Shown: piece after piece, positions 54 through 60,614 of the stretch
Layout of the letters: each line of letters begins with the position of its first letter
Position numbering within the stretch: position 1 is the stretch's first letter
Source: Sycon ciliatum
Lineage: Eukaryota > Porifera > Calcarea > Leucosolenida > Sycettidae
Direction of reading: 5' to 3'
DNA: 64,000 nucleotides
Assembly: GCF_964019385.1 (NCBI RefSeq)
Contig: NC_088643.1
Coordinates: forward strand, 49,301,315 to 49,365,314
Position numbers and translations under genes: made by a program
Notes under the pieces: model-generated
What the model saw: the letters and a program-made list of their open reading frames with translations, nothing else
Database searches by the model: none
What the model was told of the DNA's origin: nothing

Positions 54-3000
54 CACCAGCGTTTCGTGGCCATACAGCATGGAGCGGCGTTTCTGTGACC
101 AGTACCACGTGCCGGCCAAGATGGATATACAGATCACCACAACAGGCAACAGAATAGCCAGGACAATGAGTGTCATTGATGAGCTGCCGCTTTCCGTCTC
201 GGATGTTGTCTCCATTGGTCCTGTAGCAATGCGTAACAAGAAATACGAGAAGCAACATGTAGTCAAATAGCCGTTTCAGAGAAAGAAGTTTCAACAAAGC
301 TATGAATAATGCAATTGATGCCGACACAAAGTCATGATATACGAATATAATGAAAAATGTATAGAAGATTCAGAAATGTTATCGCTCAAATTTTTCTTCC
401 ACACGGTTCTCACACTATGATGACAATACAATCACCCTTGCACCCTTGTTTAATTGTAGTCGCTTTCCAGACGAAGTAAATGGTCTTTTGTATGCCGGAC
501 GATGGAGGTTTCCGAGCAGGCATTGGAGCCACTGGAAAGGGTCTTCTACCACAAGCTGATACCGGCCATTACTCCAAATGACTCTACAAGACGCCTTTTT
601 GCATTGCCTTGTCGCCTGGGTAGTCTCGTGGTCTTTGTAACCTTGAATCAAGACCAATTTTGAGCATATATTCTGATTTGCTTCCCGTATGTACAATTCT
701 ATGTAGATTCACTAATGGCCATCGAAGAAAAGCGTTTCTGAATCCGCTATACATATTTCATTTCATCGGTTTATCATGGTATTATGTTGGCATCAATTGT
801 ATTATTCATAGCTTAATACGTAGTCAGAAAATCTTATAAGGAGCCATCCGCAAATACCGATGTTTGTATCAAGACGGTATTTGTTATTTCTCCCCAGACC
901 CCTCAAACCGTACATACACTATTATGCAGGGAATCAACATTAGTGGCACTGATGATATCTCCTCTTGAAACGTGACAAAACACCGACTCCACATCCCCGG
1001 TACATCTACTAGGTTTACACCGTGACAGATTGATGAAACTCACAAAGTTTTTGTTTCTGGAGGAAGTACATGTGTATAAAGAAGGTTTTAGGACAGTGAC
1101 CTTCTCCCACACTCAGCACTGCCTCCTTTTTACGCCATGGAGCAGTGCTTCACACACCACACCCCCAGCGACCTAGGAGCGTAGCATGTAACGATTTTGA
1201 TCTGAGAGGGTGAAGTCACATGCAATGTCCAAGGGACATGTACGCACAGTGTTTGAAGTGAGCGGGCGGGGTGTTCACAACATCACATATCAAATACCTC
1301 AACCACTCACGCTCCAAAACCTTGTGTGTAGCACTGCAGCGGCACTCGACGTAATACCTCCCAGTAGGATGGACTTCCGATCCTGACACTTGAAATGACC
1401 TCCCATGTGCAATTATATAGCATGGCCATTAAACTGGAGGAGAGCTCAGGTCGATCTCACAGTGTGAGACAGGTTCATAGCATTTAGCACAGTTTCCCAG
1501 CAACAAACTAACGCCCCGGCGCTAGGCTGACGGTGGCTGCCACAGCCAATGTGTCGCAAGTCACATAGTCTGGCCCATGCCGAGTCTGGCCCATGCCGGG
1601 AGGGAGAAGTCACATAGTTTGGCCCATGCCGGGACACAGTCACATAGTTTGGCCCATGCCGGGAGGGACAGATGCACGCTACTAGTTGTACTGCTAACTT
1701 AGTCAGCCGTGGCTGAAAAATACAAGGTCATGAAATTCAGAACAAACGCTCTCAAAATCGAGGCACCCTCCCTTCCATATGTCTCTTTATCTGCCCGGCG
1801 AGCGATCAATATTCTGTAGAAGTTTGACAGGTCGATATTTGCTGGCATAGTCTACCTTCCTGCTTGTCTTAAAGTTTATTATGCTGCTAGCAGTACACAC
1901 AACCTTGACATCAAGTCACTACTAGTACACTACGGTGGCCGCAATCAGTGCCAGGTTGCCCCCCCCCCCCATGCAGTCCACTTTCGGGCATGTTTCCATC
2001 TAGCTTACAAAACATTTCAACCAATCCACCCAGAGCTTTCAAACTGAGAGTCAAGCCGTGTAGCTAGCAGACGTGCTGCTTTCCTTTAATTAACATTCCA
2101 GCGGCCATATCTTCACCTAAGCACAGGTTGTTGTCATGCCTACCCGTCACACCACCAGGATGACTCTCTCCTACTATTGTTCTAGTAACTTGCTATTTCC
2201 ACCTATACTGTATTGTTAAAAACAATAACCATTAATGTACATGTATGTATATGTTTTGGTTTGGCAACCAGCACTGGGACTCTGGTTCTGATTACTGAAT
2301 CAGGCATATCCCAACTGGCAGCCTGAAGACCTGGATTTCAAGATGTTAGCTAGTACTAGTAGTGTCACTGGTTACGGGGCACCAGTGCATGTACTAAGTG
2401 GGGCAGGACATGCACAGGCAGTTGTTGGGAAGAATACTACAATTATTATTATCCCTGGCATTATTGACAGGTCTGGGCTGGTTCCGGTCAGGCTCTTTGC
2501 ACTGGGCAGAGTTCGCTGCAGAGACTGGAGCTGTACACCACCTGCAAACACCTGCCGCTTTGCACTTGACAAGGTACTCTTCAGCACACTGCAGACAACA
2601 GGGGGGCTTGTAAGTGCATGTCTACAGTCATGTATTTCCTCTCAGACAAGAGCATCAGATCTGGGCACTACAAGTATACCATAGCACCACCACCACCACC
2701 ACTACTGCACTAGATGTACATGTAGTAGCACTTGTACAGTGCCCGCAGTGGTGATAGCTAACTACATTTCCACTTCTACCCATAATGTGGCCATGCTGTC
2801 CAGAGTGAGTAGCCCCCCCCCCCCCCTCAAGCAATACACTACTGAGTCAGTACTGAGTAGTATAGGGGCATGCTTGGCCGAGTTAGAACAATAGAAGCAA
2901 GCTGCATTGAGTCAGCTGTACAGGACTGATAGCAGTGATAGCAGTGATAGCACTGATAGCAGTGATAGCAGTGGTAATAGCCATGTCCCCAGTACACTCC

Positions 3001-4854
3001 TCTCTACTGTCACCAGTCTCTGCGCACAAGTAGAGCATAGCAACTGTTAGTGCTACTACTGCTACTGCTAGTAGTTGTAGCCATTGCTATACATGTACTG
3101 CTATATAGATAGATAAACAACCCACGGCTAATGCATGCCTTCTCCTACCAAGTTCTAGCACTATCCAGGAAACTATGAAAATTCTCTGTATCCTTGTGCC
3201 CTCTCAGACTTGTCAAAATTCTAATGCACATTTTGCTTCCTTTGCATGACAGGGCCACTTGATTTTATGGATAGGAGTATTCTTCCGTTTAGCTTCCATC
3301 TGACCATGTGCGGTACGACCATGTGCTCAATCGCCTGACGTCGTTCTGTCCATTCGGCAGCTCAGTGCAGACCTGTAACGCTTCATTGCATTTTGATCCA
3401 ATCACACCGATACCTCAGGGTGCTATAACTGCATTAGCACCTGGCACACCATACAACAATACACGACGGTCTGAGGCCAGGCCAAGCCGGGGGGGGGGGG
3501 GGGGGGGGGGGGGATATTATCATCAGATTCATCACACGGCATGTACCACCCCATGGCCCACACAATGGCTGGTGTGCAGTACTAGTACTACTACTAGTGC
3601 TACTACCTTGTCAACCATGTCTGCCTAGTTTGTAGTTGCCCCCTGTCAGCCGCACCTAGAAGGTGTGAACAATCTACTTGTGACACTTTCTCACTTTCCC
3701 AAGTCCCATCATCGCGGCAGTGATGATGCACACTCAGTCACACTCACAGTCTGCAAGTACCTTACTGTAGAAGCCATGATTCTAATGAGGTGCATATCAT
3801 AACGATTGCCTAAAATTGACTGGTTTACGTGTACCAAAGGTAACTATTCTCACTCATTCTCAACGCTCAATAGCAACAGTATTTGTATCGATTTCACGGT
3901 ACAACGATCAGGCTAAAGACAGATTTCTCCTCGTTAAAAAAACTCGTTAGAATTCAGTAGCACTTCGTTATATATGGCTTTTACAGTAGCTCCTCTAGCT
4001 AAGCGGCAGCATCATCACCAGGGTGCACTGCATGTTTACTGCACTAGAACTATCACTACAGTCTACCATACCCGTAATCTCTCTCTCACTTCTAAGGCAC
4101 TGTACTTATTTCACAAATGTTCGGTGCACTTTTATTTTCGGTCCTTGCGGCGTGTTTGCTTCATATCTAAAATTTCAATACACCAAACAACACTAACACC
4201 TATAATCCGAAACGGAACCGTGCTTCTCTGTACCTAAAATTTCTGCTCACCTAACCAGTGGCCTTTTGCCCTCATACCGAAAATATTGGGCACCTAAAAT
4301 TTCTGAAATTGGAGTAGTCACAGTGAGATAGGTTGCTTGAATTGGCCCAGGCAGATTGCCACAAGTCTAGTTCCCCACATTGATACATCATACAATAATA
4401 ACATTTTTAAGGTGGCTCGCGCCTATTTCAAAAAAATTAACGATTGCTCTGAAAATTTGGTGGGCGGTTGCTCTTAAGTAGTGTATGCAAATGGCGAAAT
4501 AAAAAAAACGGGGTCTCAATGCTAACTTTTGACATATAGGCGATGACAATTTCACTAAATTGTCAAATTTGTACAGGATTTGTGATGTATAGCAGATGGG
4601 TATTTCACCAAGAATCTGATTTACAATCTTCCTCATGTTTTGGTTATTGAATGTACTAAACGTGTACATGTCAATGAGAAAATAAAAAAACACATGCTTC
4701 AATGTTCAATTTCGCCATATAGGTGCAGAATGCCTTTTGATAAGTTTGCTTCGCTACATGTACATGCACAACTACATATCCCATGTACATGTACATATAC
4801 ATCTACCCTTCTCTACTAGCCCACCCCAACCCTGCAATACACATAGACACACGT

Positions 4855-4944
<90 letters not shown>

Positions 4945-5622
4945 ATACACCCACATATATACACACACGTGCGGGCAAACTTTGTCACCTTTTTGACAAC
5001 GTGCTTGCAAATCTAGCTGCTGTGTAATACTAGCCCAGGCCCGGTCCGGACGGAAAGAAAAAAGACTATATTCTCCAAGACTCACTGTAGCAAATACTCT
5101 TGTGGGGCGTGACACAACATACAACCCACCATCCACATGGTGGTCGTTTGATGGCTACAACCTGTGTACAATGTGTATTTTCCAAAAATGCTGGGTCATA
5201 AGATGAAACTGGCCTGGAAAATATGGATAACTGTTTTATCTCTACCATGATTTGTAGCAATTTGTAGTGGAGGTGTTGTGGGTGGTGTGGTGTACAGTGC
5301 ATGGCCATAACTTTCCAAAGTAATCTTTCTTCTTTCAAAAAGAAGACCCAAGGCCAAAATTGCAGTCTCTAGTTGGACTTGGTGCAAACAGATCTTCAGA
5401 CTTCACTGGCCTCTTGACTTGCCAGACAGCTGACCAAGCACATGACAGCCTTGACCACAAGTCAACTGCACAACCAAATAAATTTAATTGATTAATATGA
5501 CAGTGTGCTGTGTTGCTGGCAACAGCTTGGTGCACAACGGGGCTGCAGTTGCTACTCCACAGGGACCACACAACTAGTAGTGTTGTGCAAACATTGCACT
5601 GGAGCAGCAGCAGCATCAGCAT

Positions 5623-5660
<38 letters not shown>

Positions 5661-7439
5661 GCTAGTGTTTGTGGAGTAGCTCATTATTTTCCCTGCTGTG
5701 CTTAGTATTATTACAGTTCTGACGCAGACTTTACTAGTAGGTCTTCAAATGTCCCAAAAGCAAAGGGTTAGTATACAACTATCAAACACTGAACAACAAT
5801 ATGCAGCACTTCTGCCTTTGGGATTCATTTTAGGAGGCAGAATACAGTTACCAAAATGTGCTGGGCCGGCATGGGGTCTGCCAAGAAGCGCAACACAGCT
5901 GCAGCCCAGACTGGCAGACAGGCTGCGATGGGATAAATCCCTGAAACGATACTGGCAACGACACTCTCCATTTCAATCTAATAATATTCTTCGGATGTGC
6001 CTCACTGACTGAAGCCTGCGCAGCACCAGGTATTTCCCTGACCAAGGCAAGGGGAGCCGCGACAGAAGTACCACACCACGGCTGTTACTACTGTAGTGAT
6101 ACTGATAGTACTGTTACTACCGGTAGTGTTAGTCAGCGCAGGCAGGCAAGAAAACTGTAGACTACGGGTTGACACGAGGCTGAGACGCAGCAGACAGCAG
6201 CCAGCGAAGTCTAGGCTTCTCTATCTGGCCACGGACGGAAGGATAAGGATGGCCGCACGCCACAAGATTGACCAAAAATGTGACGAGAATTCGCGACTCG
6301 CAAGGGCCAGAGAGAGGAATAGATCGAGAATGCAACAAGGCCAAGGGTTGTAAATCGACTCTGAGCCCGGTGTTGCAGCGACTTCAGATGTCCGCTACAC
6401 GTGGTGTAGACATAGACAGCCACTCATTCAAGAAATGGTATCAATTTTACATACTCTAAGACAAGAATAAGAAATCTGAATAGTCTATTGTTCTGTTTCC
6501 AGGACGCATCGATATTATCAGTAAATATTACTACTGTTCCGGGCGCAAATAGTTTGGGCAGAACTAGAACAAGATTGAACGCGGATTTTGTACAAACTTG
6601 CGTAACCGTATCAGGAATTATGTGACTTCATGCGCTATATCCAAGTCTCCGCACTCACCTGGAGAAGATGTGAAAGTCAGTGTCGTAATTCCCGGCTTAA
6701 CACTGGGTGGATGTCCAACTATTCGGCCACCATTGCAGAAGTCGCTGCTGTGGCAGCAGCAATAGTGCAGCGAATCGTTGCTGTGCGCCAGCTGAGTATC
6801 ATGACTAAAGTTGCACTGGTGTCCCGTGCACAAATTTAGGCCATGGCCGAAGATGCAACCCGACGCGACCAAGAACCGCTCATTGCTATCAGCGAACAGT
6901 CTGTACAAGGAGAAGCACTGGTGCCTGTTTGGATCGGGTTCTTCCTCAATAAATTCTGGGGGCAAAGAACAGTACTCGATGCTCTCATTCGTGCTCAGAC
7001 CGCACGAAATGTTCTTTTGAGAATCACGAACATCAACTGAAAAGTTGGCCAATACTTGTGTAGCTTCCAAGTCTCCGATCTTGTGCCCGCAATGAGGGCC
7101 GAAGTAGTGGCACGACTGCACGTAGAACGCTTGAGAAGAGGGCACACAAGCCAGGAGAAGCACTGGTGCTGAGGACATACACGCACACACATGCATACGA
7201 GCGCGCAGAACAGCAGCCAGAGGAACACACCAACGACATCAGAGCGCCACTGGTACAGAGAAAACCGACAACAATAATAATCATGCAATGATCGAAGCTT
7301 TTCGTGAAAAGCACTTCCAGATTCGCTATGAACTTGACACAAAACCTCAAAAAGCGTACCATGAGCGGACAATATCCACATCGCCTGTGCATATGTGCCA
7401 TAGGCAGTACTCACCAAGAAAGAGCAGAAGACGATGCAT
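54..7439 (-). CDS. TGF-beta superfamily receptor (type II-like), 5' exons only
   Basis: Three exons on the minus strand, with matching phases: 7439-7415 (start, phase 1), 7168-6659 and 220-54, each bordered by GT and AG. Together they encode about 234 residues. Residues 1-24 form a hydrophobic signal peptide that is split by intron 1. The ectodomain has twelve cysteines and ends in the CCC-x4-C-N pattern (YCCCHSSDFCN) typical of activin/BMP/TGF-beta receptors, with five possible N-glycosylation sites. The spacing of the last cysteines (GC-x8-C-x3-C before the CCC) is closest to ActRII/BMPR2. The third exon carries a Ser/Thr-rich stalk, a transmembrane segment near residues 195-218 and a WYWSQKRR stop-transfer end. 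The receptor would bind a TGF-beta-family ligand at the cell surface and signal through a Ser/Thr kinase, which must lie left of the window. Intron 2 is 6.4 kb and full of repeats. The type II assignment is an inference; type I cannot be excluded without the GS/kinase part. Confidence 0.85.
1562..1672. repeat. Minisatellite in receptor intron 2
   Basis: Four imperfect direct copies of a unit containing TTTGGCCCATGCCGGGA or a variant of it, separated by short GTCACATAG spacers. No gene lies on either strand here. Confidence 0.7.
2926..2974. repeat. 9-bp tandem repeat (GATAGCAGT)n
   Basis: Five or so copies of a GATAGCAGT unit in a row, one with an AC for AG change, inside intron 2 of the receptor gene. 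Confidence 0.7.
4105..4314. mobile_element. TA-flanked MITE, copy 1 (TTTCGGTG family)
   Basis: A 210-bp sequence with imperfect inverted ends (left ATTTCACAAATGTTCGGTG, right CACCTAAAATTTCTGAAAT) and a TA on both sides. A close relative lies at 18448-18655, sharing most of its length. TA duplication and short inverted ends fit a Tc1/mariner-type non-autonomous element. Confidence 0.6.
4857..4940. repeat. (CA)n microsatellite
   Basis: About 40 CA units with one interruption. It creates false His/Thr and Cys/Val open frames on both strands. Confidence 0.95.
5602..5661. repeat. CAG/CAT trinucleotide repeat
   Basis: A run of CAG with a few CAT units in receptor intron 2. The alanine-rich open frame across it has no other coding signs. 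Confidence 0.85.
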
Positions 7440-52203: not shown

Positions 52204-54165
52204 TACATGTACATGTACCCTCAAAAAAAGATCAAGAGTACATAACAACTGCATTCAGTGCTGCCCCAGCAGAAGTTCAAGTCGATGTAGTTTTTATGAG
52301 CGGCAATGCTCTTCGCCCGAGTGTTTGCGGCGTTTGTACTGGATGCCAACATACCACATGTGTTTCCTTACACCAATTTATGTAGGATCAAAATATTAAT
52401 GGGGATTTGTCCAGCGCAGCTCCAGGACACGTCTGATAATACATGTACAACGCGCATCGCATCGTAAAAAATGACGTCAACTTGAAATTCTGTTGGGAAA
52501 GCACCCATTGTGAAGTTGCTGCGTGATACTCTTACTAGTATGACTCTATCAGAAACTTTACTGCTTGCATACCCGCGTGCACACTTGTACATCAATGCCT
52601 AGGACACAATTATACTGTAGTACCTCAAAAGTGAAATTTACTTTGCAATAAAGATTGGAATAATATCGGGATTACATTTTGGTTATTATTTTGCCCCCTG
52701 GATCATGAACAGCATCGAACAATTTCACACATACCTTCATAGCAGGCTGAATTTCTCGAAAGCCATCTCGGCATGACTGTAATAGCTGCTAATCTAACCT
52801 CATTTTGGTTAGTCGTATGTCGTGAACATAGTCATCATGGTCATTGGCCAAGGAATCATAGTTACAGACTACGTAACAAGTACATAGTGCATAGTGCGAG
52901 CGCGCCCATGGCCCATGCATATGCCCTGAGAATGCGTAGATCTACCCCAGTAAAAATATTTCGCTCACGTGGCGGCAATCGACGATTCTGTGCTACAATC
53001 CTACATACTAGCAAAGCATGCATGCAGCATGCTCGGGTTTTGAACACACGTACGTGATCACGGGTCAAAAAGCGGAAAAAGTCTGTAGTCTTGTGAAGTA
53101 ATTATTATTTTTAGTTGTGTACATAGTCTAGAACTAGAACATACCCACATGACTCTACACTCAGACGAGACTACAGTCGTCTACTACATCATGTACATGA
53201 CCGGCAGAAGAGGACAGAGACAGCCGGCTAGCCTACAGCGCGGATGATTTTGACCTTCTCCGCGGTCACACATGAAAACAGAAAAGCTTGCACCGCTTTT
53301 GCGGATGCGGAAAGCGGAACTACCGCAGCCGCTTTGGCGGACCACACGATGCAGCGGTCACACATACATGTAGACTACTGTGCTCCTCAGCTCAACGCTC
53401 CGCTTTGGCGGAGAGAATGCAAATGCAGCACGTCCTATGAAATTTTAGAAACACAGGCTGCATCTTTTTCAGATGTTGCTGTAGCCTTTCAGCCGCCCTT
53501 TGCTCTGTCGACGATGGACCACCTGATGTCGTACTCTTCACCCTGGTCCTGCAGTGCCCACATGGGCCACAATACAACTTACAAGTGCTTCGACAGCTAC
53601 GTGCTTTTGCAGTACTTTTCGTATCTTATGAGTCATAGTCGTGAGGTGGTTGCCATAATTATACATAACATGTACATGTAGCGCATCTTGAACGGTGTCT
53701 CGCAAAGCCAGAACGGGTCGAAGTAGATCTACTAATACGCGAAGGACTAAAGGGACCGTCACTTAATTTTTGCCGACTACCCGCCAAAAAAATCTTTTCG
53801 TTTCACGTGTCAGACACGTCCGCGAGCGCGTCCGACTCGCGCGCGCGCGCCCGCGCTACCTTTCACGTCAGGCAATCTGTTCACGCCACATGGCTGGATC
53901 GCGTACATGCAAACATGATTGAAGACTTGCAAAATCAATTTTTTTCCAAGTCCAGGTGCTAGGCGCTAGGCCTAGGCAGTACTACTATAGTACTAATGCC
54001 TAATGCCCAGGCAGCTGACTTTATTTTCGGAGAAACACTACTCATTGTAGTAAAAAGTAACAATGAATAGCGATATCATCTAGGAAGGATCGCTACCCTA
54101 ACGCGAAGGAAAGGCCTTGCGCGGCTGCTCTACGAAGTGTTGAAGAAAGACTCATCAAAGTTAGT

Positions 54166-55130
54166 TGGTGGACGAACAACTCGCTGGCGCCGGAAAACTT
54201 GGCCCCCAACGAGTCGATGGTGTTTGGTGAATCATCAAGCATAATGTCTTGTAGCAGTGTTCACCGAGGAAGGAGAACGCTCTAGTCGCTGCTGTTGTCC
54301 GTTCCATCCACGCTGGGCGTTAGCTGCACCGCGCCTATTGTGTTTTAGTATTCCATGGACACACATTAGCATTCAGAGCGATTGTGGAGCCACAATTTAC
54401 TTCACACAGCGTTGTATTGTCCACGAGCGCAAACTTCATTATCAGCAGTAACTGTTACTCTTCATCCTACATGTAGACTTGGAGTATACACGGCCTTGTC
54501 ACGACAGCGACAGCTCTACAGAGTGTTCAAGTGAGAAACATTAATTTCTATTGTTGGTGGATGAATAAATGGCTGGTTCCGAAAAAACGCGGCCTGCACC
54601 GATGGTGTTTGGTGGATCATCAAACATGGTGACCAGCAGTGTTCACCGAGGAAGGAGAATGCACTCGCCACCACTCCGATTCATCCAAGTGGGCGTTAGC
54701 TGCGCCGCGCCTATTGTGTTTTAGTATTCCATGGACGCACACTAGCGTTCTCAGCGATTGTGGAGCCACAACATATCTTCATGCGGCGTTGGACTGTCCA
54801 AGAGCAGAAACGTCAGCAGTGACCCATCATCATACATGTAGATTTGGAGCATACACACCATGCGCCAATGGGCCTTGGCACAACAGCGGCAGCTCTACGG
54901 AGTGTTCAAGTGAGAAACATTTGTTTCGACTTATGGTGGACGAACAAATCGTCGGTGCCGTAAAACGTGGCCTGCGCCGATGGTGCTTGAAACATCAAAC
55001 ATGGTATGTGGTGACTGTCAGTGTTGATCGAGGAAGGAGAACACTCAGGCCGTCGACCGTTCATCCTTTTCGTTAGCTGCACTAAGTCTATTGTGTCCTT
55101 GTATTCCATGGGCACACAATCATGAAGCAT
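54166..55130. repeat. Tandem units of about 385 bp in the left arm
   Basis: Units start at 54166, 54555 and 54934. Each has a TGGTGGACGAACAA-like start, GTTCACCGAGGAAGGAGAA, GCGCCTATTGTGTTTTAGTA and GTGTTCAAGTGAGAAACAT. The third unit is the most diverged and runs past the point where the arms stop matching. Open frames starting MFTEEGE in each unit are products of the repeat, not genes. Confidence 0.8.
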
Positions 55131-55810
55131 GGCGTCTGAGCTGTGTTCACAGAGCGGGGAGATGCTCTTGCTGCTATCTTATCTGTCCTGTGTATTCCCA
55201 AGTGCCGAAGGCTTACAACGATGGTGTTGGACAAGTCAGATAAAATAGAGTCAACGTAAGTACGCATGTGTACTCTTACTGACTGAAACATAAGTGGGGT
55301 GTAAGAGCTAATTCAAATGGTGTCGTGACATTCTCATGTACGAGGTTAGTGTGTAGTACTTGTTACGTACTGAATTCTGTGACTTTGTTTTGTCTCCATA
55401 TACTGCATGCATTCACGTTTCACAGTTATCAGTTTGACCCTGAGTTCATGTCTGTTATCCCGTGTCTCCTCTACTTATTTTTGTTTCCACACGGTTCATG
55501 GTGTAGCGCTGCACGTGTTCCGTCAGTTTGAACTTCAGCATAAATCGCAACTACTTGTACTTTCAGACATGTCACGTGATTGTTGCCAGGGTTTGAGCCA
55601 ATCAGAGCGTTTACAGGCAGGGCCTGAACCCCTGATCATGCCTTGCCTGCCAGCTGTACTACGATATTATATGTCACGTACCCGCGCGCGCACGGTTCTC
55701 CTGCGCTTGGGCTTGCTTTCCCTTGGTAGTTGGAAGTCAGTGGCTGTTTTAGTACTCTTAGATTATGTACAGAAAGTGGTGGACATCACGCAACTGCAGT
55801 ATAAATTAAA

Positions 55811-55921
55811 GGGTGGTTGTCAACTGACAACCGCATAATTTTTCGACATAATTAATAAAAGAATTTTCATCTAAAGAGTGGAAAGCAACTAAATAGAGCG
55901 GTTGTCGGTTGACAACCCCCC
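55811..55921. repeat. Small hairpin element in the spacer
   Basis: GGGTGGTTGTCAACTGACAA and TTGTCGGTTGACAACCCCCC form inverted ends around an AT-rich centre, 111 bp in all. Confidence 0.65.
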
Positions 55922-56089
55922 CTTTTATTTAGATTATGTATCTGAAGTAAACACAACGTAGAAATATCACAATTGTCTCTTGTGTATTATATCCGTCTGA
56001 TGTCACCAGATCGTCACACGGTGCTGTGACCAAGATACGGATCATGCCGAACGCTGATTCAACTGGACGAATCGCGAGGCTTTTCAGAT

Positions 56090-57190
56090 GCAGGGACACA
56101 ATGGAAACTGAATGACTTCAGAACAGCACTGAAGCGTTATGTTATCATGCAAGACGCCTTTCTGCGCCGCACAAACACAGGCGGTACTACAGCAGAAAAT
56201 GTCACTCACTATTCTGCAGGTGCACTGGTGACAGGCGCATGCAAGTTCACCAGAAGGAAGCGGTCTGATGTTAACTGGAATGCCAGCAGTATGAGAGGGT
56301 GTGCATTCTGCGGCGGATCTCACCTGGACAAGAGCTGCGCGAAATACGCAACAGTAGCACAGCGGAAAGAATAACTGATTGAACAGAAGCGTTGCTTTGT
56401 GTGTTTGCGCACAGGGCACCGGTCAACTCAGTGCAAGGCCACCCGCAAGTGTAATGTGTGTTCTCGCATGGGTCACCAATCAGAGTCACCATCATGTCAC
56501 GATCTGCCCTGAATCTCAACAGAAATCTGACAGCAGTACCAACATAGTAGCTGACCAGCCTGTGGCTGACAAGGTACCAGCATCTAGCGCAACAGCAGCT
56601 AGTGCAGCATCAACCAGTATCGCCATTGACCGTAAGATAGTCAGTCGTCTTGATCGGTGCAGATTTCCTCTGGGAGTCTTGACGGGGAGCACCAGAGGAC
56701 TTCCGCCAGGACTACAGTTTCTGCCTACCACAGTCGGTTTTGTGGTGACTGGCCAAACACGTCACTCCAAGCACTCAGCTACGCCGATGAGCAGCCATGC
56801 CAGCTATCGTTTCTCTAACTGATGCAACTTCCGACTCCTGCACCATCATCCCAGATCTGTGGGACCTAGACTGTGTTGACATCCAGGATTCAGGCAATCT
56901 TACTAACAACGACCTAGCCATTAGGCAATTCATCATTGTTCTACGATTTTGCCTGCCACCAATCGTCATGACCTGCGATACTGAGAAGGCCATTTTACAA
57001 ATCAGTGCCAACCCAGCATACAGAGATGCAACACGATTTCTGTGGTTCGCCAACTCCGACAGTCCATCAGTCACCCCATCCAGCCTGTTCACGCTCATAA
57101 GCAGTCCATTTCTGCTTGGCGCGTCTATACAGCATCATTTGCCACAGCAAGATGACAAAACAGCTAGCAGTGGCTATTGGTGAGAACATT
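56090..57190 (+). pseudogene. BEL/Pao retrotransposon remnants (gag zinc knuckles, RT piece)
   Basis: Three pieces in order on the plus strand. About 56130-56520 encodes the end of a Gag with cysteine/histidine knuckles (AFCGGSHLDKSCAKY, CFVCLRTGHRSTQC, CNVCSRMGHQSESPSC), with an in-frame TAA at 56372 between the first two. About 56840-56930 encodes a LWDLDCVDIQD block like the region before the BEL/Pao reverse transcriptase. About 56975-57150 encodes RT-like blocks (RDATRFLWF, ISSPFLLGASIQHHL). Large internal deletions and stops show it is dead. No flanking long terminal repeats were found. Confidence 0.75.
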
Positions 57191-57935
57191 TTCTGCTGTG
57201 CCATTGGAGTGTGCACTATACACGAACCCTGCTCTTTTGTTGGCACCGCCTATGTAACTTACTGCATAGGGTGCAAGGTGACCGTTGTCGGTTTACATGT
57301 ACTCCAGTTATTACACCGTGCATGCACTGAGTCTGTGCTGCACTGTGCATCCATAGGTGTTCGTTTGCGGTAGCGCAAGGTTGATGGATTGTTTTGTCCG
57401 CTGCTATTCGAAGCTCTCGGAGTCGGAAGCGTTACCTCTGTTTCCCCTGTTCCTCCCTGCGCGGAGTCTGTAGTTCTGGCTTGCAGTCGCTGTTACATGC
57501 ATGTTGGCAGTTGCATGTGTTTTGGTTTTCAGTTGTCTTCATTTGTTTTGTGTGGACGACAGTTCAATATTCTAGCAGTTGTTGCACTTCCTACATTCCG
57601 TAGTTATCTGCGGTTGGTGTTCGAGAGAGCAAACTGTGTTCTTCTCCAGAGTGGAGTAAACCATTCGCTTGTGTCTGAGGAAAACCCTGTGTGTTGACGA
57701 AGAGGTTGACTTGGCTGTAGAGTGAAAGTACCACATGGTCACATGGTCCACAAAATCTTAGAACTAACTTAGGGTCTTCTGGCGTATGGTATGATTATAT
57801 GAGCAGCATGAGAGTGAAGTAAAAGACTATTAGCTCAAACATTCAGTCTTTCAAGAGTAGGTGTTTCATCACGGAATAGGTTCTGCAGTTCACTTACACA
57901 CTGCAACAATGGACCAGCAGTGTCTGCAGGGAGTT

Positions 57936-58437
57936 TCATAATCTGTTCATTGCAGAGTCCACTATGCTATGATTCAAGTTTGCCCTTAGCATGGCCTTGT
58001 CATGAGGGTGCCACATCCGTGGAAAGGCAACATGCCGGCTAATCTCCCTGAGAAGTTGAGTGGTTATCAGCAGGCGATGACGCTGTGTCGATGATGACCT
58101 GTTGATGACCGACAGGAACCTTGCGAGGAGAGTCATTGGGCCCGACGGGTAGGTAAAGCCAACTTCCACATGAAGTTTGCGGATGGCCGACATGTAGACA
58201 TGGACAGATCGGGGCTGAAAAGTTCTGAACAACTCGGCAGCAAAATAACACATAAAGTAAAAAGTCATCACCTGGCAATGGATTCCAGTTATGCCCTTGG
58301 CAGAACTGGAAGTAACGGGTATCGGCGGAAAAATATTTCCGGCTGGTGCCAGTGCTGCTAGCTGCAGCACGGAGTCCGGCAACTGAGAGTTGGCAAGACT
58401 GGCTAATCTGGCTCAGCTGCTGCTTCCGGAGCCCTCG
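57936..58437 (-). pseudogene. Truncated tyrosine recombinase (DIRS/Crypton-like N-terminal domain)
   Basis: On the minus strand, just inside the right arm, a frame with the SAM-like N-terminal pattern of DIRS/Ngaro/Crypton recombinases is split over two reading frames with a shift near 58260. The first part contains RYFQFCQGHNWNPLPGDD. The second contains SVHVYMSAIRKLHVEVGF, RHRLLITTQLLREI and WHPHDKAMLRA. The catalytic C-terminal half with the Arg, His and Tyr residues is missing, and the frame ends at 57936. It may once have moved the element or a relative. Confidence 0.7.
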
Positions 58438-59779
58438 ATGGTTCAAACACCATCGGCGCAGGCCACGTTTTACGGCACCGACGATTTGTTCGTCCACCAT
58501 AAGTCGAAACAAATGTTTCTCACTTGAACACTCCGTAGAGCTGCCGCTGTTGTGCCAAGGCCCATTGGCGCATGGTGTGTATGCTCCAAATCTACATGTA
58601 TGATGATGGGTCACTGCTGACGTTTCTGCTCTTGGACAGTCCAACGCCGCATGAAGATATGTTGTGGCTCCACAATCGCTGAGAACGCTAGTGTGCGTCC
58701 ATGGAATACTAAAACACAATAGGCGCGGCGCAGCTAACGCCCACTTGGATGAATCGGAGTGGTGGCGAGTGCATTCTCCTTCCTCGGTGAACACTGCTGG
58801 TCACCATGTTTGATGATCCACCAAACACCATCGGTGCAGGCCGCGTTTTTTCGGAACCAGCCATTTATTCATCCACCAACAATAGAAATTAATGTTTCTC
58901 ACTTGAACACTCTGTAGAGCTGTCGCTGTCGTGACAAGGCCGTGTATACTCCAAGTCTACATGTAGGATGAAGAGTAACAGTTACTGCTGATAATGAAGT
59001 TTGCGCTCGTGGACAAAACAACGCTGTGTGAAGTAAATTGTGGCTCCACAATCGCTCTGAATGCTAATGTGTGTCCATGGAATACTAAAACACAATAGGC
59101 GCGGTGCAGCTAACGCCCAACGTGGATGAAACGGACAACAGCAGCGACTAGAGCGTTCTCCTTCCTCGGTGAACACTGCTACAAGACAATCATTATGCTT
59201 GATGATTCACCAAACACCATCGACTCGTTGGGGGCCAAGTTTTCCGGCGCCAGCGAGTTGTTCGTCCACCAACTAACTTTGATGAGTCTTTCTTCAACAC
59301 TTCGTAGAGCAGCCGCGCAAGGCCTTTCCTTCGCGTTAGGGTAGCGATCCTTCCTAGATGATATCGCTATTCATTGTTACTTTTTACTACAATGAGTAAT
59401 GTTTCTCCGAAAATAAAGTCAGCTGCCTGGGCAAGCGCATTAGGCATTAGTACTGCCTCAGTGCCTAGCCTCAGCCCTAGGCCTAGACGCTAGGCAGCGC
59501 CTGGACTTGTAAAAATATTGATTTTGCAAGTCTTCAATCATGTTTGCATGTACGTATGCGCTATCCAGCCATGTGGCGTGAACAGATTGCTTGACGTGAA
59601 AGGTAGCGCGGGCCGGCGAGCGCGAGTCGACAAGTCGTACGATCGTACGCGCTCGCGGACGTGTCTGACACGTGAAACGAAAAGATTTTTTTGGCGGGTA
59701 GTCGGCAAAAATTAAGTGACGGTCCCTTTACTACTTTAGGCTTTAGTCCTTCGCTACTAATACTGCTTCTGGTCACCAT

Positions 59780-60478: not shown

Positions 60479-60614
60479 AAGTCTGAAGAAAATGTTGAAC
60501 GGTCTCTGCTGGGATGACGACTACACCATAGCTCAGTGGTTAGAGCATCGTTAGCTACAAGCGAGGGTCCCTGGTTCGAGTCCTGGTGGTGACAGTCAAT
60601 TTTTCTTCAGACTT
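60479..60614 (+). mobile_element. tRNA-like sequence within a 14-bp perfect inverted repeat
   Basis: 60522-60593 has the internal promoter boxes TAGCTCAGTGGTTAGAGCA (A box) and GGTTCGAGTCC (B box), a paired anticodon stem (TCGTT/AGCGA) and a paired T stem with one mismatch. The first two acceptor pairs fail and position 33 of the loop is G instead of T, so it is not a working tRNA. AAGTCTGAAGAAAA (60479-60492) and TTTTCTTCAGACTT (60601-60614) enclose it. Confidence 0.6.

Follow-up and report, generated by a model that had tools for sequence, protein, structure and literature searches.

A stretch of 64,000 nucleotides from the calcareous sponge Sycon ciliatum (NCBI RefSeq assembly GCF_964019385.1, contig NC_088643.1, positions 49,301,315 to 49,365,314; hereafter the window, numbered from its first letter) contains a foldback element of 6,016 bp at positions 53739-59754. 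The element very probably belongs to a young family of foldback-type DNA transposons that is non-autonomous, carries captured retrotransposon debris, and is moved in trans by a DDE transposase, perhaps one of the Mutator-like (MULE) superfamily; with the MULE assignment left aside, we are far surer of this reading. It is a new foldback family, and its cargo includes dead pieces of two retrotransposons, one Ngaro-like and one of the BEL/Pao type. A preliminary description of the locus had suggested a non-autonomous or composite, foldback-like element, and in this it was right.

The element ends in GCGAAGGACTAAAG and CTTTAGTCCTTCGC and is flanked on both sides by a 9-bp target-site duplication (TSD), TACTAATAC. 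When up to two mismatches were allowed, the GCGAAGGACTAAAG end matched just the two termini of the element within the window. The arms, each about 1.3 kb long, pair in inverted orientation (53731-54996 with 58437-59747) over blocks of 752 nt (99% identity), 243 nt (100%), and 105, 71, and 59 nt (92-95%), and in the right arm 15 additional bases separate the terminal 14 bp from the remainder. Inside each arm lie tandem units spaced 376-379 nt apart, with about 77% identity between units; the arms are absent from the Tandem Repeats Finder listing. The preliminary description had given inverted arms of about 1.3 kb made of units of about 385 bp, close to the measured values, and limits of 53738 and 59754, of which the right one is exact and the left one lies one base too far out. 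As cut for alignment, the window spacer measures 3,400 nt, about 0.55 kb less than the commonest form in the family (about 3,960 nt), and its parts at about 55004-56000 and 57300-57900 were matched to no identified source. Long inverted arms with tandem units, dispersed copies with TSDs, and a variable arm length, the structural hallmarks of foldback elements, were all found.

We searched the element's own assembly (538 Mb, 313 contigs) and fetched matching stretches, which are designated by L-numbers. With one arm as probe, a first look yielded 516 candidates, and among the 40 that were scored, the near-full-length matches besides the window's own left arm were 92-97% identical. Probes made from the recombinase and BEL pieces of the spacer gave 180 and 136 genome candidates, respectively, and the main matches among the 40 scored for each were 96-100% identical. 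All 19 of the other copies that were fetched contained a match to the window spacer, some with deletions; because L014 and L015 derive from a single duplicated locus, these copies represent at most 18 separate insertions. Fifteen aligned spacers showed pairwise identities of 96.6-99.8%, and the family is therefore young. The two arms within one copy were 0.968-1.000 identical, about the same likeness as between arms of different copies (11 copies).

The insertion sites point to the type of enzyme involved. Among 18 end pairs of the window family, some of which were placed in it on end sequence alone, an exact 9-bp duplication was found in 10 and an exact 10-bp duplication in two, while a control with mispaired ends gave an exact duplication in none of 702 mispairings (27 pairs). 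In addition, L020 and the 273-bp copy L042 occupy two copies of the same host repeat, at sites that differ by 10 bp, and each locus shows the site of the other unoccupied, with the duplicated bases present once (one substitution allowed). The preliminary description had called for empty sites that would give the exact ends and the duplication, and this pair of loci supplied them. The 9-bp duplications and the reciprocal empty sites represent the behavior of a DDE-type transposase; tyrosine recombinases are not known to make TSDs of this kind. Copy number and TSDs also exclude a chance origin. That the structure is a product of assembly or segmental duplication, or of independent nested insertions at one locus, would suit the single duplicated locus L014/L015 and the rearranged copies L028 and L017/L018. 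We consider this hardly tenable, because 12 of the 18 pairs have distinct flanks and distinct duplications, the same composite recurs in the 19 other copies, and empty sites exist.

A 158-aa frame (57936-58412, minus strand) adjoins the right arm. This frame had no match in Pfam at E<=1, and direct searches of the window frames against Pfam, PHROGs, and PDB gave nothing useful. Outside its own family, it matched 23 places that contain a 344-aa frame (63-72% identity; 150 of 633 candidates scored), and at 20 of them the match is stop-free. Three of these places, L029, L030, and L056, are copies of a young Ngaro-like retrotransposon family. L029 and L030 are 98.5% identical across 4.67 kb, and L029 contains a 405-aa frame without a Pfam match, a reverse transcriptase (RT; PF00078) scoring 46.9 bits, and a recombinase (PF00589) scoring 31.6 bits against a cut-off of 27.1, and its split direct repeats run in the order A1-B1-A2-B2; L056, the third copy, is alike to L029 and also has split direct repeats. 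The alignment of the window frame with the 344-aa L029 recombinase covers residues 30-171 of the latter at 67% identity, whereas the PF00589 catalytic match covers residues 165-324. Thus, the intact relatives in the same genome confirm that the frame derives from a recombinase, as the preliminary description had read it.

We compared this fragment in 22 stretches (the window, L009-L028, and an older copy in L057). In 20 of them it corresponds to nt 52-513 of the 1,032-nt recombinase frame; the exceptions are L016 (nt 163-513) and L019, where the fetched stretch stops short. The DNA of the window fragment is 85.6% identical to L029/L056. Nucleotides 514-1049 are absent in all 22, and any match that follows the fragment starts past the stop codon, no earlier than nt 1050. 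Many in-family copies have a stop inside the recombinase frame. The shared breaks and the absence of the catalytic part are therefore older than the spread of the family, and the spacer match in the 19 other copies together with the shared break points places the recombinase piece in the founder. The spacer with both dead fragments was thus already in the founder and spread along with the arms. As captured debris, the recombinase piece cannot act and does not drive the element.

These results bear directly on the alternative of a recombinase-driven foldback or DIRS-like element whose arms are mobilized by the tyrosine recombinase, a link that the preliminary description had suggested. The fragment does adjoin the arm, ending at 58433, 3 bp from the arm start at 58437, and it was present in the founder. 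We nevertheless regard this alternative as very improbable: the fragment lacks the catalytic domain in every stretch compared, the insertions carry 9-bp duplications, and the Ngaro-like relatives have split direct repeats of their own, with no foldback arms or ends in 8 kb of L029, L030, and L056 (three of the 23 places with the 344-aa frame). On the question of whether arms occur apart from the recombinase, they do in L042, which consists of arm ends, yet every one of the 19 other fetched copies matches the spacer. A separate recombinase element did not merely land here either, as shown by the break points common to 20 of the 22 stretches. We accordingly rejected the recombinase as the mobilizing enzyme, and also the landing of a whole DIRS/Ngaro copy at this locus, where only a deleted fragment is present within a spacer common to the other copies.

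DIRS/Ngaro elements are not known to make a target-site duplication, nor are Cryptons known to have long inverted ends. The window element has long arms and 9-bp duplications, its recombinase fragment ends at residue 171 of 344, short of the catalytic part, and split repeats occur only in the separate L029/L056 copies, so that neither class accommodates it. A literature search for a link between foldback elements and tyrosine recombinases, judged on titles and abstract openings, found none. The terminal repeats of DIRS/Ngaro elements are split direct or inverted ones, copies of which also lie inside the element, and in Cryptons the recombinase is the sole enzyme (PMC4157794). Ngaro-like retrotransposons are the source of the foldback's recombinase fragment; whole elements of this kind hold an RT, a recombinase, and split direct repeats (PMC4157794), whereas the foldback holds only a truncated, deleted piece.

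The second captured piece lies on the plus strand of the spacer, where the frames, judged by eye, read as BEL-type Gag knuckles and split RT blocks. In tblastn searches of one 7.6-kb stretch, L057, the spacer RT frame matched a BEL/Pao copy with E=2e-6, while the knuckle frame alone reached only E=0.05; a joint tblastx comparison gave 1e-9, a value that includes one arm match. The BEL/Pao copy itself (L057/L058; contig C8, around 4532567-4538838) has long terminal repeats (LTRs) of 498 bp that are 99.8% identical and a Peptidase_A17 domain (147.6 bits). The foldback element has only broken Gag and RT pieces, without LTRs or an intact gag-pol, and the BEL element with intact LTRs is a separate copy. 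The captured BEL piece of the preliminary description is therefore real, as a broken Gag/RT fragment, and its RT portion has a match in a BEL/Pao copy from this genome. The L057/L058 copy stands beside a truncated older foldback copy, the arm of which is about 85-90% identical to the family.

The 14-bp end GCGAAGGACTAAAG reaches beyond this family. It has 401 exact occurrences in the genome, compared with two for a reversed control; individual places among them were listed for most of contig C1. Two longer forms of the end define further families. For family C (...GGGACCC; L069-L080), 92 ends were counted (control, 0); 24 pairs of them lie within 25 kb, and 22 of these pairs span 2.5-8.3 kb. 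Exact 9-bp duplications were found in four of five pairs tested, and of two copies fetched in full, one has arms of about 375 nt and the other of about 745 nt; the readable interior of L080 looks non-coding, and the interior of L079 consists of N. For family B (...GGGACGC), the count is 42 ends (control, 0), with 15 end pairs of 10.2-20.8 kb, for instance L059/L060 (C1:65833350-65846238). Four pairs were tested for duplications: two have exact 9-bp duplications, one has eight of nine identities, and one has none.

Inside 13 of the 15 family-B pairs we found an exon resembling hormone-sensitive lipase, which is also its best relative of solved structure (E=1.8e-38; Abhydrolase_3, 94.5 bits). 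The exon occurs at 23 places in the genome with 81-100% identity, 20 of them stop-free, and the next best place is 57% identical. Further lipase exons and introns are suggested by one more, weak Abhydrolase_3 match (24.0 bits; cut-off 25) and by reading by eye. A whole intron-containing metabolic gene may thus travel, and be maintained, as transposon cargo. We consider it an even call whether a single transposase recognizing GCGAAGGACTAAAG mobilizes three or more sorts of DNA that are unrelated to one another, namely the foldback with dead retrotransposons, a non-coding family with long arms, and elements of 10-21 kb with a lipase-like gene. The shared end with differing cargoes is in our view the most interesting part of these results and the one most worth following, and the link of the foldback family to the lipase-exon elements makes whole-gene amplification by animal transposons testable. 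By eye, a copy of the window family, or family A (L031/L032), and a family-C copy (L073) have identical flanking 14 bases, GTCGCGTGACATTT, and seem to occupy neighboring sites of one host repeat.

Several observations weigh against our reading of the foldback family as moved by a DDE transposase, perhaps of the MULE type. No transposase-bearing copy was found. None of the MULE domain matches in the genome lies inside any of the end pairs of family B (15) or family C (24), the nearest being 19 kb from an end. Among the 18 end pairs of the window family, two have eight of nine identities and four have no duplication or a displaced one. Outside these 18, the duplicated locus L014/L015 has altered ends (eight of nine; exact 9), L016 lacks the terminal motif on both sides, the right end is not intact in L025 and L027, and no right end was found in the fetched stretches of L019, L021, L022, and L024. 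Finally, L017/L018 is flanked by a 60-bp direct repeat, not by a 9-bp duplication, and 54 bp of this repeat recur once further to the right.

Inspection by eye revealed no transposase in the family-C copy L080, nor in the family-B example, where the frames inspected were those of at least 62 aa in L059 and on the right side of L060, and those of at least 130 aa in the rest. CC-variant ends were sampled by fetching 10 of 32 matches, about 1.3 kb each; in seven of them the frames of at least 90 aa were viewed by eye, with no Pfam search on them, and none resembled a transposase. Because none of the 41 MULE matches above the cut-off lies within the 39 family-B and family-C pairs, MULE is only what we infer for the superfamily, and by analogy with known elements we slightly favor it. 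The same non-autonomous transposon may instead depend on a Merlin, P-like, or undescribed transposase that makes 8-10-bp duplications. We regard this as quite possible without preferring it: it accords with the missing MULE domain between the listed end pairs and with the terminal GCGAAGGAC, which was matched to no known superfamily in this analysis. On the other side, MULE domains exist in the genome, the duplications are of the MULE type (8-10 bp, mostly 9 bp), and 9-bp duplications combined with foldback arms are known from the MULE-type Tm1 (PMC3169594) and, by inference, Tetris (PMC4079207).

Tm1, a Mutator/Foldback family of root-knot nematodes, resembles the window family in its composite arms built with tandem units, in duplications of 8-10 bp that are mostly 9 bp long, and in non-autonomous copies with unrelated interiors (PMC3169594). 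It differs in having a transposase-bearing copy (FLYWCH and MULE), none of which was found in the window family, and in its units of mostly 14 bp compared with about 377 bp here, where the cargo is also much larger. Tetris of Drosophila virilis is likewise a foldback with tandem-repeat arms, 8-10-bp duplications, and no coding capacity; its autonomous copy was not found, and its authors inferred a MULE (PMC4079207). Tetris has three structurally complete copies, whereas young copies are numerous in the window family and carry dead cargo from two retrotransposons. Galileo of Drosophila has arms of up to about 1.2 kb, some with tandem repeats of about 210 bp, and resembles our family in arm extension by recruitment of inner sequence (compare L017/L018) and in short two-arm copies (compare L042), although it belongs to the P superfamily, while the window family has 9-10-bp duplications and no transposase that we could find (PMC3573991).

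Pack-TIRs of animals, including Ssk-FB4, also hold foreign sequence between transposon ends, and multi-copy cases were amplified by transposition (PMC8277862). A survey of 100 animal genomes reported 370 Pack-TIRs, few of them multi-copy, and no Pack-MULE (PMC8277862). They are defined on sequence other than transposable elements (TEs), with a median capture of 224 bp, whereas the window family carries about 4 kb, a good deal of it TE debris, in many copies. Its captured pieces do have relatives in the genome, these being TEs themselves, and part of the spacer is of no identified source. Gap filling and fork switching have been proposed for Pack-TIR capture (PMC8277862).

From these comparisons, a scheme for the family can be proposed. 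Pieces of retrotransposons would have been captured between two ends by repair or template switching before amplification. A DDE cut-and-paste transposase supplied in trans would recognize the ends, and perhaps also repeated sites in the arms, and would move whatever DNA lies between two such ends. The arms may lengthen, shorten, and swap through unequal exchange and conversion, as suggested by L017/L018 (C1:30757-41533), whose arms of about 2.4 kb have incorporated spacer sequence including the recombinase piece. The family thus offers a clear case of foldback formation and growth, by capture of dead retrotransposons and then amplification, in copies young enough for the steps to be followed. 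The features of the window element are listed in Table 1.

Table 1. Features of the foldback element and its flanks in the window
Feature	Position	Strand	Remarks
Left TSD, 9 bp TACTAATAC	53730..53738		
Left arm with end GCGAAGGACTAAAG; unique sequence outside, ~377-bp units inside	53739..55003	+	
Tandem-unit marker: 48-nt core in three copies, spacing 376-377 nt; third copy just within the spacer	54318..55118	+	
Spacer common to the family	55004..58436		
BEL/Pao Gag zinc-knuckle remnant, frame broken	56300..56503	+	Motif read by eye; the BEL copy in L057 matches weakly
BEL/Pao RT remnant, internal deletion	56850..57060	+	By eye; tblastn E=2e-6 to L057
Ngaro-like tyrosine-recombinase fragment without catalytic domain	57981..58433	-	85.6% DNA identity to L029/L056; 67% protein identity
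Right arm, inverted copy of the left arm	58437..59754	-	
Right TSD, 9 bp TACTAATAC	59755..59763		

Some further features of the family and the window were noted. At five loci, two elements adjoin each other at their ends, separated by exactly 5 bp (C1:5638065/5638084, 26725672/26725691, 31844812/31844831, and 46011701/46011720, and L041 156-162), and these pairs look as if the composite had moved as a single unit. In L019, a LINE-type retrotransposon (2453-6732) with a 977-aa endonuclease-RT frame and a poly-A tail is nested in the foldback copy. Elsewhere in the window, a tRNA-like gene at 60522-60594 (plus strand; ARAGORN anticodon CTA; Rfam tRNA, 35.4 bits) may be a tRNA-derived repeat. A frame at 6618-7238 (minus strand) has a cysteine-rich stretch that, judged by eye, resembles the extracellular domain of a TGF-beta/activin type II receptor.

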